Shown in pieces: positions 37,404-42,567 of a stretch of 64,000 nucleotides of DNA. Positions within the stretch are counted from its first letter, which is position 1, and each line of letters begins with the position of its first letter. The translations under genes were made by a program, and so were the position numbers. Origin of the DNA: Acidobacteriota bacterium (GTDB lineage Bacteria > Acidobacteriota > Blastocatellia > Pyrinomonadales > Pyrinomonadaceae); assembly GCA_020199835.1 (NCBI GenBank), contig JAIVJV010000008.1, forward strand, positions 310,001-374,000. Direction: 5' to 3'. Below the pieces are notes generated by a model that saw only the letters and a program-made list of their open reading frames with translations, was not told where the DNA came from and made no database searches.

Positions 37404-38492
37404 TTAGGCCGCCACCGCTTCGATGACGCTGTAAGGCGACTTCGTCGGAACGATACGCGTCATGTTTAAACCGGCGCGCGCGAAGAGTTCACGGTATTCA
37501 TTCGCGGTTCTCTCCTTGCCGCCCGGCGAAACAAGCATCTCGATGTCGAGCAACTTGCCGAAGTCCTGGTTGTTTCCATCAGCGATGATCGCTTCGACCA
37601 ACAGCACGCGGCCGCCTGGCTTCATCGCTCGCTTGATGTTCTTCAGGATCGTCAGCGCTCGCTCGTCGTCCCAATCATGAATGATGTGCTTCATGATGTA
37701 AGCGTCGCCGCCCTCCGGCACTTCTGCAAAGAAGTCGCCGTCTACAAACTCGACGCGCTCCGCTGCTTTACTCGCAGCGACTTGCTCACGCGCGCCCGCG
37801 ATCACGTGCGGAAGGTCAAACAAAACTCCCCGCACTTTCGGATTTGCTTCCAGAATTCCCGTAAGCATGCGGCCGTGACCGCCGGCGATATCAACCAGAG
37901 TTTCGATTCCGCCGAAGTCGTAAGCTTCGATAACGGCAGCAGTGGCGACGCTTGAAAAACTGCTCATTGCGCGGTTGAAGACCTGCGCGGCTTCCGGATT
38001 CTTCTCGAAGAACGAAAACACTTCTTCGCCGTGCGTCTGCCCCCAAGCGGATTTGCCGGTGCGGACGCTGTAGAGAATCTTGCCCCAAACGTCCCAGTGC
38101 CAATCTTCGCCCCAGAAAATCGCGACGTCGCGCAGTGAATCAGGCACGTCGGAGCGCAACGGTTCGGCGGTCGGAGTCAGGGCAAACTTGCGACCGTCCT
38201 GTTCGGTAAAGACGCCGAGTGAAGCGAGCGCGCGCAACACGCGATAAAGCGAAGGCGCGTCGGTGTCGGTGGCTTTGGCGAGATCTTCGACTGATTTCGG
38301 TCCGTCGACGAGGTGATCTGCGATGCCGAGCTTCGCCGCGACGTAAAGCGTTTGCGAGGCGAGGCTGCCGAGCAGGATTTGTGTCAGGAAAGCAGCCGGA
38401 GGAGGAGAGGCTTCGGTGCTGACTGACGATTGTTCCCCAAGGTTAACTGAATGGTTATTCGGATTTTCACCTTCAAAGACCGCTGTGGACAT
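37404..38492 (-). CDS. SAM-dependent O-methyltransferase (methyltransferase family 2)
   Basis: The product has 362 residues. ATG 38492 follows AGGAGAAAAG; ten upstream codons are excluded. Residues about 32-120 form the dimerisation winged helix (LLGSLASQTLYVAAKLGIADHL, LYRVLRALASLGVFTEQDG). The Rossmann part has VDIAGGHGRMLTGIL (SAM motif I) and HIIHDWDDERALTIL with the usual catalytic His-Asp. The family includes acetylserotonin-, hydroxyneurosporene- and polyketide-O-methyltransferases; the substrate here is unknown. It starts 88 bp after the NtrC-like gene on the same strand and may be under its control. Confidence 0.9.
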   Translation of the reverse strand: MSTAVFEGENPNNHSVNLGEQSSVSTEASPPPAAFLTQILLGSLASQTLYVAAKLGIADHLVDGPKSVEDLAKATDTDAPSLYRVLRALASLGVFTEQDGRKFALTPTAEPLRSDVPDSLRDVAIFWGEDWHWDVWGKILYSVRTGKSAWGQTHGEEVFSFFEKNPEAAQVFNRAMSSFSSVATAAVIEAYDFGGIETLVDIAGGHGRMLTGILEANPKVRGVLFDLPHVIAGAREQVAASKAAERVEFVDGDFFAEVPEGGDAYIMKHIIHDWDDERALTILKNIKRAMKPGGRVLLVEAIIADGNNQDFGKLLDIEMLVSPGGKERTANEYRELFARAGLNMTRIVPTKSPYSVIEAVAA

Positions 38493-38580
38493 CTTTTCTC
38501 CTGTATGAATTAACTTGTTCAATGGTGCGCGTTTCGCACCACTGAATAACGCGTAATTCGGTGAGAAAAGAGGCCAATGA

Positions 38581-39429
38581 TTACCGGTAGGCGCGGCGCA
38601 CTCTTTCGGAGTCGATGTGGTGGCGTTTGATCATGCGATCGAGTGTTTTGCGATCGACTGCGAGGACGCGGGCGGCGGCTTGTTTGTTGCCGCGTGTGTG
38701 CTCCAATACTTGCGCCACGTACCGTCCTTCAATCGTCGATAACGGAACCCACTCCTCCTGCGACGTTTCGGTCGAGTGACCGTTAGTTTCCGCAGCACTC
38801 TGCGAATAATTGAGCGCACGCAACGGCGGCAATGCGATCGACACGGAGTTCAAACAATTCAACAGGTCGCGGTGAAACCTTCCAGCAGCGACTTCCTGAT
38901 CCACGTTCCGGTCGGTCGCGGCGATCACACGCACGTTCACTCTTTGTGTCTGGCTAGAACCGGCGCGACAAATCTCACCCGTCTGCAACGTCCGCAGCAA
39001 GTGCGCCTGAAACGAAGGGGTCGTTTCCGTGATCTCACTGAAAAAGATCGTTCCCCCATCGGCTTTTTCCCATTGCTCGAGTTCGTCGCGATCCGCACTG
39101 CACTTCACGGTGACAAACGGTTTATCAGAGCGGCTGCTGCGCTGGTGAATCGCTGCTGCGACCAACTCTGTCCCCGTTCTTGATTTTCCCGTGAGCAACA
39201 CCGGCAAATCAGTATTGGCAACGCGTTCAACGTGCTTCATGACCTCTAAGAACGCCTGGCTGCGTCCCACTAGATCTTTGTCTGAGTGGTACGCAGCCAT
39301 GCGTGTCGTGGGGGAGGACCCTTGGAACCGTTCTGACAACTGTTCACTGAACGCTATCAGCTCGCGCACTTGCGGCTTGTCGTCGATTACCACCGTCTGA
39401 AAATTTCCGTCAATCGCCCTGTCGCTCAT
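38581..39429 (-). CDS. ATPase-dead NtrC-like regulator with Fis-type HTH
   Basis: The product has 282 residues from ATG 39429, with GGAGGAAC about ten bases upstream. Residues about 52-205 align with the AAA+ domain of sigma-54 activators, but every catalytic element is broken: Walker A reads GKSRTGTE (81-88) where GESGTGKE is normal; Walker B reads GGTIFFSEI (125-133) with Ser for Asp; the GAFTGA loop that touches sigma-54 is deleted (only about 14 residues lie between VKCSA and GGT); and the arginine-finger segment reads FHRDLLNCLN. The Fis-type helix-turn-helix at about 235-272 (GNKQAAARVLAVDRKTLDRM) is intact. It therefore probably binds DNA but cannot remodel sigma-54. No receiver domain is present. 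Confidence 0.85.
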   Translation of the reverse strand: MSDRAIDGNFQTVVIDDKPQVRELIAFSEQLSERFQGSSPTTRMAAYHSDKDLVGRSQAFLEVMKHVERVANTDLPVLLTGKSRTGTELVAAAIHQRSSRSDKPFVTVKCSADRDELEQWEKADGGTIFFSEITETTPSFQAHLLRTLQTGEICRAGSSQTQRVNVRVIAATDRNVDQEVAAGRFHRDLLNCLNSVSIALPPLRALNYSQSAAETNGHSTETSQEEWVPLSTIEGRYVAQVLEHTRGNKQAAARVLAVDRKTLDRMIKRHHIDSERVRRAYR

Positions 39430-39935
39430 CACCGATGTTCCTCCCACATTTTGTTACTTCAAACATTGGCTTAGAAGTGGACCCTGAACGAACCCACGTT
39501 GGTTCCGATCGCGACTGCTTTTGTTATGAAAGGCCGCTGCCGGTATGGCTCAAGCGTGTAGCGGCTTTGCAGGTGGGGAACGGCGACCTCGCCCTGGCCA
39601 CCGTTCCCCTGCACGCGCGAGGGACTGTTCGAGACTCTGCGCGCGTATCTCTAAATCTCAATGCACTGCCGCTTGGGATTCGTCACCGATCTCCCTGTGC
39701 CTGTCGGGTCCTCGTTTGCGGTTCATAGCCGTTGACCCGATTGCGTGAGGTGTAAAGACTCGGCGTGTTCCACGCATCAACTGAGTGTGGGCTATGCTCA
39801 AAAATCGCACGGCTAGGCTAAGCTGTATGTAAATAGCATGCAATGAGGAGAATCCTGAACAGACATCAGTTAATTCCTGAGGACAAAAGGTTTAATCAAT
39901 AAAAGCACTCCCCGGTGGACCGATTCGTCTAGTTG
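39430..39935. other. Intergenic region, no supported gene
   Basis: About 500 bp between the NtrC-like gene and the NarL-type regulator, both reading minus. Short frames are present but none has a ribosome site and a convincing protein. No GG-N10-GC sigma-54 promoter was found by eye. The right end, after the regulator stop, is AT-rich. Confidence 0.4.
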
Positions 39936-40583
39936 CTATTCGACTTCAATGAGGCCGACGATGATCGCGTAACGCACGAGCCCGGCGACGTCGTGAATGC
40001 CGAGGCGCTCCATGAGTTGGGCCCGGTGCGTTTCCACGGTTTTCACGCTAATTTCCAACTCCTGCGCGATCTGCTTGGTGGTCCGCCCCTCGGCTATCAG
40101 TCGCAACACTTCACGCTGCCGCGGGCTTAGTGTTTCCAGTAAATCTCGTTTTGTAACCCCTTTTCCGTACTCAATAAGCGTTTTCCGTGAGGTTTCCGGC
40201 GAGATATAGACCTCGCCGTTCATCACTGTATGAATTGCCTGTTCAAGCTCCGTGCTGGCCGCGCTTTTCGGGAGGAAGCCGGCGGCGCCTTCACGTAAGG
40301 CGCGGATAGCGTATTCACCGGCTTCGTGGACGGTGAGGACAATGACGCGAATCGTCGAAAACTTTTTCTGCACATGTTGCAGGACATCGAAACCGCTGCC
40401 GTCCGGCATGGTGATGTCGAGCAAGACCAGATCAGGCACGAGTTCGTTGATCAGGTCGATGGCTTCACTGCCCTTGCCAGCCTCACCGACGACCGTCACG
40501 CCCGTGATTTTCTCCACCAGTGCTCGAATCCCGGCTCGAACCAGCGCGTGGTCGTCAGCTATGAGTGTCCGCACAGATTTCAT
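39936..40583 (-). CDS. NarL/LuxR-family response regulator
   Basis: The product has 215 residues from ATG 40583 (a GTG one codon earlier is possible). The receiver domain at about 1-120 has the acidic pocket DDH (10-12), phosphoacceptor Asp56 (LVLLDITMP), Thr84 region (VLTVHEAG) and Lys106 (LPKSAA). The LuxR-type helix-turn-helix at about 148-210 has LSPRQREVLRLIAEGRTTKQIA and VETHRAQLMERLGI. It is the cognate regulator of the histidine kinase 46 bp upstream on the same strand, as usual for NarX/NarL-type pairs. Targets are unknown; the NtrC-like gene, O-methyltransferase and symporter downstream on the same strand are candidates. Confidence 0.94.
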   Translation of the reverse strand: MKSVRTLIADDHALVRAGIRALVEKITGVTVVGEAGKGSEAIDLINELVPDLVLLDITMPDGSGFDVLQHVQKKFSTIRVIVLTVHEAGEYAIRALREGAAGFLPKSAASTELEQAIHTVMNGEVYISPETSRKTLIEYGKGVTKRDLLETLSPRQREVLRLIAEGRTTKQIAQELEISVKTVETHRAQLMERLGIHDVAGLVRYAIIVGLIEVE

Positions 40584-40632
40584 CACTTGTCTTTGACAAA
40601 GGCATAATTGCAGGAACCACCTGATCCAACAA

Positions 40633-42567
40633 TCAGGAATTACCTGAGACGGCAGCTACCTGAACTTGTAGTTCTTCGATAGTCACAGGGAAACTGGCAC
40701 AAACCTGTGTACCAAGACCCGGCGCGGAGTCGATTGTGAGTGTGCCGCCGACCGCCTGGGCACGTTCTTCCATCCCGCGCAGACCCAATGTGGGCGCGCC
40801 TGAGGCACTGCGCATCTGCTTCACGTCGAACCCGCTGCCGTTGTCGCCGATGACTAGCAACAGCTCCGAGCCGGTCCTTTCCAGCCCGACCACGAGACGT
40901 GTCGCGCGCGCGTGGCGAATGATGTTCGTGACTCCCTCCTGCATGATGCGGAAGCAGGCAGTCTCGAGCGCTGCGGGAAAACGGTCGTCGTCAGTGAGCG
41001 AGTGGCTCGAAAATTCTACTGCCACGCCGCTGTTCCTGGCCTGACGGTCCAGGTACCAGCGCACCGCTACCACCAGACCAAAATCGTCGAGCAGTAACGG
41101 ACGCAAATCGACGGAAAGATCCCTGACCTGGTCCACTGCTTCGTCGATCACGTTGAGGTTCTCTTCGATCGACGTGAGAAATTCCGGTGAGTTATACGCC
41201 TTGCGCAACGCGTGCAGGTTCATCTTCACAGCGGTGAGGATCTGTCCGACCTGGTCATGTAACTCGAGCGAGATGCGTCTGCGCTCTGCTTCCTGCGCCT
41301 CGAGCAATCGCCGTGAGTAAGTGCGTGAGGCTTCGTGAGCTTTCTTTCGTTCGGAAATGTCGTGCAGACAGCCCTGCACGCCAACCGGCAAACCGTTCTC
41401 GATGATCAGACGGCTGCTTACTTCGACCGGAATGCGCTCGCCTTGTTTTGTGATCAACTCCACTTCGTACGTCGTTTCGCCGGATGCGTGAAGTTTGCGG
41501 CACAACTGCTCGCGAACGTGACGTGCGTATTCGGGTGACACAAGACTGGAGAAGTGTCTCCCAATGAGTTCCTGGCGGGTGTAGCCAGACAACTGCTCGG
41601 CAGCGCGATTCACAGACGTGTATTGGCCACTCATGTCGTGGACGTAAATCGCGTCTTTCGAGTTTTCGAACAGTTCGCGATAACGCTCTTCGCTTTCGCG
41701 GAGAGCCTTCTGCGCGCGCCGAGCTTCGGTGATGTCGCGCGCAATGCCGCGTACGATTGGCGTGTCGACTCCCTCCGTGCGAAGAGAGTTGTAGTACTCG
41801 AGCATGCGTCGTTCGCCGCTGCTTGTCTGCACGAGCATCGTGCCGCTCGTTGCGCCCTCGCGGCAGATGCGTTTCATGTAATCGTCAAACTGGGCGCGCA
41901 TTTCCGGAACGAGCAGATCGCGTATGTTCTTCTGATGGACCAGCGCACTCGGTTCGTAGCCAAACAGTTCGGCGGCTGCTCGATTGACTGAAAGGAGCTT
42001 TCCGCTGAGGTCGTGAGTGCAGATCAACTCGCGGCTGTTTTCGACGAGATCGCGATATTGCTCCTCGCTGCCGCGCAGTGCTCGTTCGGCTTCTTTGCGT
42101 TCGGAGATGTCGTTTGTGAGTGTAACGAGGTGCGTAGGCCGTCCTCTTTCATCTCGAATCACGCAAACGCTGTTTTCGACCCAGACGAGGCTGCCGTCAT
42201 GGCGCAGGTAACGCTCTTCAGTGGTGAACGCCGGAATTTCTTCGGACTTCAATGCCTGTAGCTTTTCTTCGTGAACGGCTAGATCGTCTGGGTGAATTAA
42301 CCTTTTGAGATCAGCGGCGTGGAGTTCGGCTTCCGTGTAACCCGTGATCGCGCTGTATGCGGGGTTGACGGCGAGTAAGCGGTCTTCGAGGTCGGTAATG
42401 GAAAAGCCGATGCTTGCATGTTCGAAGCACGCTTTAAAAAGGTCATCAGTCTTTACAGCGGCCTCGGCGGGAGCGTCGGACTTTTCTGTTAGCCTATTGC
42501 TGCTGCGGGCTGATATGTCGTCTTCGAGTGAACGCGCGGAAGCGCTCGGTGTTTGCCTGTCTCTCAT
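40633..42567 (-). CDS. Three-PAS sensor histidine kinase (NarL-pair type)
   Basis: The product has 644 residues with no membrane helix, so it is a soluble sensor. Three PAS domains lie at about 43-160, 170-285 and 295-410; each ends with the typical DISERK-like or DITEAR segment. The HisKA_3 dimerisation domain carries the phosphorylated His437 (RISLELHDQVGQ). The HATPase domain (about 540-632) has DNGSGFD and the GLRGMEERAQAVGG loop. PAS domains may bind haem, flavin or a small molecule, but no diagnostic residue is clear. It precedes its response regulator by 46 bp and is the first gene of the minus-strand series. The start ATG 42567 has only weak upstream purines. Confidence 0.92.
   Translation of the reverse strand: MRDRQTPSASARSLEDDISARSSNRLTEKSDAPAEAAVKTDDLFKACFEHASIGFSITDLEDRLLAVNPAYSAITGYTEAELHAADLKRLIHPDDLAVHEEKLQALKSEEIPAFTTEERYLRHDGSLVWVENSVCVIRDERGRPTHLVTLTNDISERKEAERALRGSEEQYRDLVENSRELICTHDLSGKLLSVNRAAAELFGYEPSALVHQKNIRDLLVPEMRAQFDDYMKRICREGATSGTMLVQTSSGERRMLEYYNSLRTEGVDTPIVRGIARDITEARRAQKALRESEERYRELFENSKDAIYVHDMSGQYTSVNRAAEQLSGYTRQELIGRHFSSLVSPEYARHVREQLCRKLHASGETTYEVELITKQGERIPVEVSSRLIIENGLPVGVQGCLHDISERKKAHEASRTYSRRLLEAQEAERRRISLELHDQVGQILTAVKMNLHALRKAYNSPEFLTSIEENLNVIDEAVDQVRDLSVDLRPLLLDDFGLVVAVRWYLDRQARNSGVAVEFSSHSLTDDDRFPAALETACFRIMQEGVTNIIRHARATRLVVGLERTGSELLLVIGDNGSGFDVKQMRSASGAPTLGLRGMEERAQAVGGTLTIDSAPGLGTQVCASFPVTIEELQVQVAAVSGNS

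Follow-up and report, generated by a model that had tools for sequence, protein, structure and literature searches.

Several regulators of the NtrC family have dispensed with the GAFTGA motif. TyrR, DhaR, HupR and the NtrC proteins of Caulobacter and Rhodobacter are without it and act on sigma-70 promoters, and it is missing from VpsR as well (PMC3162934, PMC10274813). A protein encoded in the window analysed here, a 64,000 nucleotide stretch of the genome of an Acidobacteriota bacterium, belongs to the same protein family as TyrR, DhaR, HupR, VpsR and YplP and shares with them a defective GAFTGA and the loss of sigma-54 contact (PMC3162934). It resembles the Caulobacter and Rhodobacter NtrC proteins, which act on sigma-70 promoters, in that the sigma-54 contact loop is deleted (Caulobacter NtrC has lost 8 residues and the Rhodobacter protein a longer stretch; PMC10274813); unlike it, however, these two retain a receiver, its phospho-Asp and the Walker motifs, all of which the window protein has lost together with the lid. 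A first reading of this DNA, made from the sequence only, remarked that the known GAFTGA-less relatives keep their Walker motifs, and the comparison is a fair one, as Caulobacter NtrC has no GAFTGA and requires its Walker residues (PMC10274813). Fis and NinH are likewise small proteins with a Fis/NtrC-type helix-turn-helix (HTH), and Fis is described as derived from NtrC in the passage of PMC7166090 that cites Morett and Bork 1998; the window protein differs from both in retaining an AAA+ scaffold and a receiver stub, and is an intermediate form rather than a Fis. In the open-access papers searched we found no protein that combines the loss of the receiver, of Walker A and B, of sensor I and of the arginine fingers and lid with demonstrated selection on the HTH.

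The gene and the recognisable parts of its product are as follows:
38581-39429, minus strand: degenerate NtrC-type regulator of 282 amino acids, an intact open reading frame with its ATG at 39429 and GGGAGGA ahead of it
39325-39405, minus strand: receiver-domain remnant, NFQTVVIDDKPQVRELIAFSEQLSERF, from alignment with full-length relatives
38821-39282, minus strand: remnant of the AAA+ domain, lacking both the GAFTGA loop and the lid (PF00158, PF14532 and alignment)
39166-39189, minus strand: former Walker A, GKSRTGTE, by motif comparison with relatives
39064-39102, minus strand: junction at the deleted GAFTGA loop, CSADRDELEQWEK, from alignment
39031-39057, minus strand: former Walker B, GGTIFFSEI, by motif comparison with relatives
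38851-38877, minus strand: former arginine fingers, FHRDLLNCL, by motif comparison with relatives
38614-38748, minus strand: Fis-type HTH, VPLSTIEGRYVAQVLEHTRGNKQAAARVLAVDRKTLDRMIKRHHI (Pfam HTH_8, E=2e-08; 27 of 27 family-invariant positions kept)

A second in-frame start, GTG, lies at 39447. In the alignment with full-length relatives the N-terminus, NFQTVVIDDKPQVREL, corresponds to the start of a receiver domain, the rest of which is deleted; beta1/alpha1 is fused to the end of alpha5, and the phospho-Asp, Thr and Lys fall within the deletion, so that only the first strand and helix are left of the receiver of an NtrC-type response regulator and its phospho-acceptor is gone. The AAA+ remnant still scores 130 bits against PF00158 (the sigma-54 interaction domain) and covers the whole of PF14532 (Sigma54_activ_2, a shorter version of that domain) with 87.4 bits against a curated cut-off of 25, in agreement with the first impression that the scaffold is readable, PF14532 being a domain model in which membership is by profile only and implies no function. 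In Walker A the second Gly is replaced by Arg and the Lys by Thr, in Walker B the Asp is replaced by Ser and the Glu is retained, the sensor I Asn has become Asp, and both arginine fingers are gone (the first Arg is now His, the second Cys). At GAFTGA the alignment has a gap of 21 residues, with SADRDELEQWEK directly after VKC, and the C-terminal lid of about 60 residues, sensor II included, is missing. The sequence-only reading had recognised the Walker A Lys to Thr, Walker B Asp to Ser and arginine-finger changes, all of them real against the relatives, and an intact HTH; its GAFTGA deletion is also real but smaller than the approximately 30 residues it gave, and its list of losses, correct in what it named, overlooked the lid and the receiver stub. 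The protein thus lacks the GAFTGA, Walker A and B, arginine fingers and sensor II lid of a sigma-54 activator and has the Fis-type C-terminal HTH of one. Its AlphaFold model has a mean pLDDT of 61.5 (81-93 in the HTH, mostly 60-80 in the AAA+ core), and the best PDB matches of the model are sigma-54 activators. Alignment, gene tree and synteny with the copy in the related genome G098 all indicate a shared origin with the NtrC-type response regulators of the bacterial family, and the motif losses relative to the full-length proteins uphold the earlier view of a derivative of an NtrC-type activator that is unable to work as one.

Relatives were sought among 119 genomes of the family, the window's own genome (G000) being 4.87 Mb and 83% complete. 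Ten aligned full-length relatives are about 470 codons long, with every motif present (GSFTGA or GAFTGA at the loop), and represent the ancestral type, a receiver-AAA+-HTH protein of about 470 amino acids. Short orthologues with intact frames and lesions of their own are present at the same locus in two genomes of the same genus, G099 (contig L052) and G097, between a NarL-type regulator on one side and a solute symporter on the other, and G098 has at this locus a full-length but altered copy that a contig border splits into overlapping pieces (L097 and L096). The losses are graded. The Walker A Gly/Lys positions read GGGK in the relatives and G098, GGLK in G099, GGCK in G097 and GRGT in the window protein; Walker B reads DE in the relatives, G098 and G097, NE in G099 and SE in the window protein; the sensor I Asn is retained in G098 and is D in G099, S in G097 and D in the window protein; and the arginine fingers are RR in the relatives and G098, HH in G099, PR in G097 and HC in the window protein. 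GAFTGA is GAFFGA in G098 and deleted in the other three, with different borders in each, and the G098 receiver retains its phospho-Asp but has N for the second acidic residue, Ser for Thr and Arg for Lys. Single changes in GAFTGA, chiefly of the Phe and Thr, lower and mostly abolish activation (PMC3162934), so sigma-54 activation was probably lost before the loop deletions. Species trees weakly pair G000 with the full-length G098 (AU p 0.68, 0.73 and 0.60; the alternative, a single short clade, has 0.32, 0.27 and 0.41), and the gene tree leans toward one short clade (0.85 versus 0.16). We considered parallel shortening in several lineages and did not adopt it, as its tree support is weak and the gene tree leans the other way; since neither topology is rejected, one shortening followed by separate trimming in each lineage is taken as the simpler reading of these sequences.

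Constraint on the AAA+ remnant and on the HTH is very different. All 27 HTH positions that do not vary among the ten relatives are unchanged in G000, G099, G097 and G098, versus 17-32 of 102 AAA+ scaffold positions changed or deleted across the four species (32 of 102 in the window protein, for which the comparison with the HTH gives a Fisher p of 0.00025). The ratio dN(AAA)/dN(HTH) is 3.4-4.3 in the four-species clade versus 0.46-1.1 among full-length pairs, in which the HTH is mostly the faster-evolving of the two parts; the clade values arise because the AAA+ dN has risen to about 0.26 and the HTH dN is still 0.06-0.09. The clade is represented by four species and synonymous sites are saturated, which makes the absolute dN/dS values rough.

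What remains of the AAA+ domain could in principle have become a ligand sensor that binds some other small molecule and thereby controls the HTH. FleQ and VpsR bind c-di-GMP, and the alpha/beta core is still under selection and is predicted with medium confidence, but the pocket residues differ among the three short proteins and no conserved new ligand motif was recognised in them, and we consider such a sensor unlikely. It is somewhat more improbable still that the gene is decaying, its AAA+ losses neutral and its protein without a present role. The lesions do differ by species, down to the borders of the GAFTGA deletion, and catalytic positions of the window protein have been lost faster than those of the scaffold (10 of 14 versus 32 of 102 other invariant positions, p=0.006); yet no invariant HTH residue has changed, and even within the AAA+ remnant pN is about 0.22 versus a pS of about 0.75. 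In neutral simulations with 0.5 substitutions per site none of 2000 runs was without stops, and at saturated synonymous divergence 8-11 stops are expected, whereas the frames are open in three lineages. A pN this far below pS, in frames that are open in each lineage, excludes free decay: by these sequence comparisons the window gene is not a pseudogene, and its reading frame, part of its AAA+ scaffold and its whole HTH are maintained by selection. The sequence-only reading had said that random variation in relatives would point to a plain pseudogene, which is not what is found, and had proposed a search for relatives with like deletions, intact frames and purifying selection, of which G099 and G097, with their strongly constrained HTH, are examples. 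The decoy that it suggested, or a dominant-negative partner, which would occupy the enhancers of intact NtrC-type activators or enter mixed rings with them, is very improbable. In its favour, the window's own genome (83% complete) has sigma-54 and more than 12 other NtrC-type regulators, most with full motifs; against it, among the search matches in that genome no other regulator has a similar HTH (best 38% identity over 45 residues), and the ring-building surfaces (arginine fingers, L1 and lid) of the window protein are lost.

We think it probable that a former two-component sigma-54 activator has here been reduced to a DNA-binding regulator, the receiver core, sigma-54-contacting loop, ATPase motifs and lid having been lost or altered in the clade. 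As read from its sequence the window protein most likely regulates by binding DNA, independently of ATP and of phosphorylation. It would bind DNA through its HTH as a dimer, in the manner of the HTH domains of NtrC and Fis; it would neither use ATP, nor act on sigma-54 promoters (sigma-54 is present in all four clade genomes), nor be switched by phosphorylation. At its target it would be either a repressor or a regulator of sigma-70 promoters that needs no ATP; which sign the regulation has is guesswork, and the DNA-binding repressor of the earlier reading is a live option. Its activity would be set by the amount of protein, through a sigma-70-like promoter, dyads for a NarL-type regulator and a structured leader. 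These elements and the adjoining genes are:
40633-42567, minus strand: three-PAS histidine kinase (HisKA_3; Pfam)
40633-40647, no strand: perfect dyad TCAGGAATTACCTGA, ahead of the NarL-type regulator gene and overlapping the end of the kinase gene
39936-40586, minus strand: response regulator of the NarL type, which putatively controls the degenerate gene (Pfam Response_reg, GerE)
39866-39880, minus strand: second dyad, TCAGGAATTAACTGA, from the dyad search
39844-39858, minus strand: dyad TCAGGATTCTCCTCA, putative NarL-type regulator site, abutting the -35 element
39814-39843, minus strand: putative promoter-like element TTGCAT-N17-TAGCCT, from conservation and weak by consensus
39613-39646, minus strand: leader hairpin 1, ACGCGCG ... 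CGCGCGT, whose loop varies in length, from alignment
39575-39610, minus strand: leader hairpin 2, a 14-bp stem with the invariant loop AGGGCGA, in four species and at this locus only
38518-38546, no strand: dyad TTCAGTGGTGCG-N5-CGCACCATTGAA, lying between the genes for the regulator and the O-methyltransferase
37404-38522, minus strand: O-methyltransferase (Methyltransf_2; Pfam), an inconstant neighbour

The promoter-like element is conserved across species as TTGC..-N17/18-TAGCCT abutted by a dyad, and a consensus promoter scan made no call at 39814-39843. In several genomes of the family, dyads of the form TCAGG-N5-CCTGA adjoin NarL-type regulator genes; with one mismatch they also lie ahead of the degenerate gene in G000, G098 and G097. 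Other loci of the window's own genome, 94.5 kb in all, gave four such matches. They occur in the window at 39844-39880 and 40610-40647, and in L097, L099, L101, L102 and L104. This sequence is probably the binding site of this group of NarL-type regulators, and we read the degenerate gene as being controlled by the neighbouring one.

Both leader inverted repeats lie between the promoter-like element and the gene, and the 14 bases GGCCAGGGCGAGGT of hairpin 2 are identical in all four species. In a pattern search hairpin 2 is found once in each of these species and nowhere else in the 119 genomes; a covariance model gave no further convincing copy in the family, its weak matches elsewhere proving to be other GC-rich hairpins with different loops, and an Rfam scan of the leader gave nothing near threshold. 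Counterparts of the two-hairpin element (39575-39646, minus strand) are present in L097, L098 and L052. Compared with shuffled sequences the leader folds with z of -4.0 in G000, -2.3 in G098 and, more weakly, -0.95 in G099, the stretch of G097 that was folded not reaching the 3' arm. One pair is changed on both sides, which is too little covariation to decide between an RNA and a DNA element, and the two hairpins may be an RNA leader, a small RNA or a DNA site.

The neighbours were correctly identified at the outset, the kinase and NarL-type regulator upstream and the O-methyltransferase downstream, all on the strand of the degenerate gene. The O-methyltransferase adjoins the regulator only in G000 and G098 and is absent from the locus in G099; in G097 a relic of it (the last 13 codons, TKSPYSVIKAVAA) lies directly behind the stop of the short regulator, at about 6777-6822 of L098. 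It was considered as a constant target and rejected, since the gene is missing from two of the three short-regulator loci in which the regulator is retained, and its control as a conserved role is a weak proposal on this gene order. G098 has a different dyad at the site of the 38518-38546 dyad. Its NarL-type regulator gene (L097:1784-2479) is inverted relative to the other three species, by a local inversion or an assembly fault. The full-length NtrC gene of G100, G115, G112, G044 and G116 has a NarL-type regulator gene resembling the window's at a distance of 8-24 kb, the two separated by a sensor-kinase cluster of which the last member, a REC-kinase of about 600 amino acids, directly precedes the NtrC gene; in the window the two regulator genes directly adjoin. 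This kinase type is found elsewhere in G000 and G097 with no NtrC gene alongside (63% identity to the G095 kinase).

Just downstream of the full-length gene most relatives have sigma-54-like sites, and none was found after the degenerate gene. A perfect dyad, TTTYACC-NN-GGTRAAA, also lies just downstream of the full-length ntrC-type gene (L100:2816, L103:2320, L107:4240, L108:2255). It occurs once per genome in four full-length relatives, ahead of a sigma-54-like site and also, in three or more of these genomes, of a protein-kinase gene; it has the look of an enhancer dedicated to a single target of the full-length regulator. As a candidate operator it is absent from G000, where no operator for the window protein was found; the lone near match in the window lies inside coding sequence and was discarded.

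We tentatively regard the window protein as a traceable intermediate that links NtrC-type ATPase activators with Fis-like DNA-binding proteins, a reading that we hold with rather less than even confidence, in which control would have moved from phosphorylation to NarL-type-driven synthesis, the dead AAA+ domain would be kept as a scaffold and the structured leader would be a new, clade-specific acquisition. Regulators that have lost sigma-54 contact are known as individual cases. The four congeneric species, together with their relatives, present graded stages, from GSFTGA through GAFFGA to the loss of loop, ATPase and receiver altogether, with the DNA-binding end fixed, and give a snapshot of one kind of regulator turning into another, in which switch, engine and sigma-54 contact are lost and the DNA-binding end is nearly unchanged. 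The step from an ATP-driven activator to a simple DNA-binding protein thereby becomes testable in a small group of soil acidobacteria, as do the questions of whether separation from the partner kinase came first and whether the dead AAA+ domain is left with a structural job.
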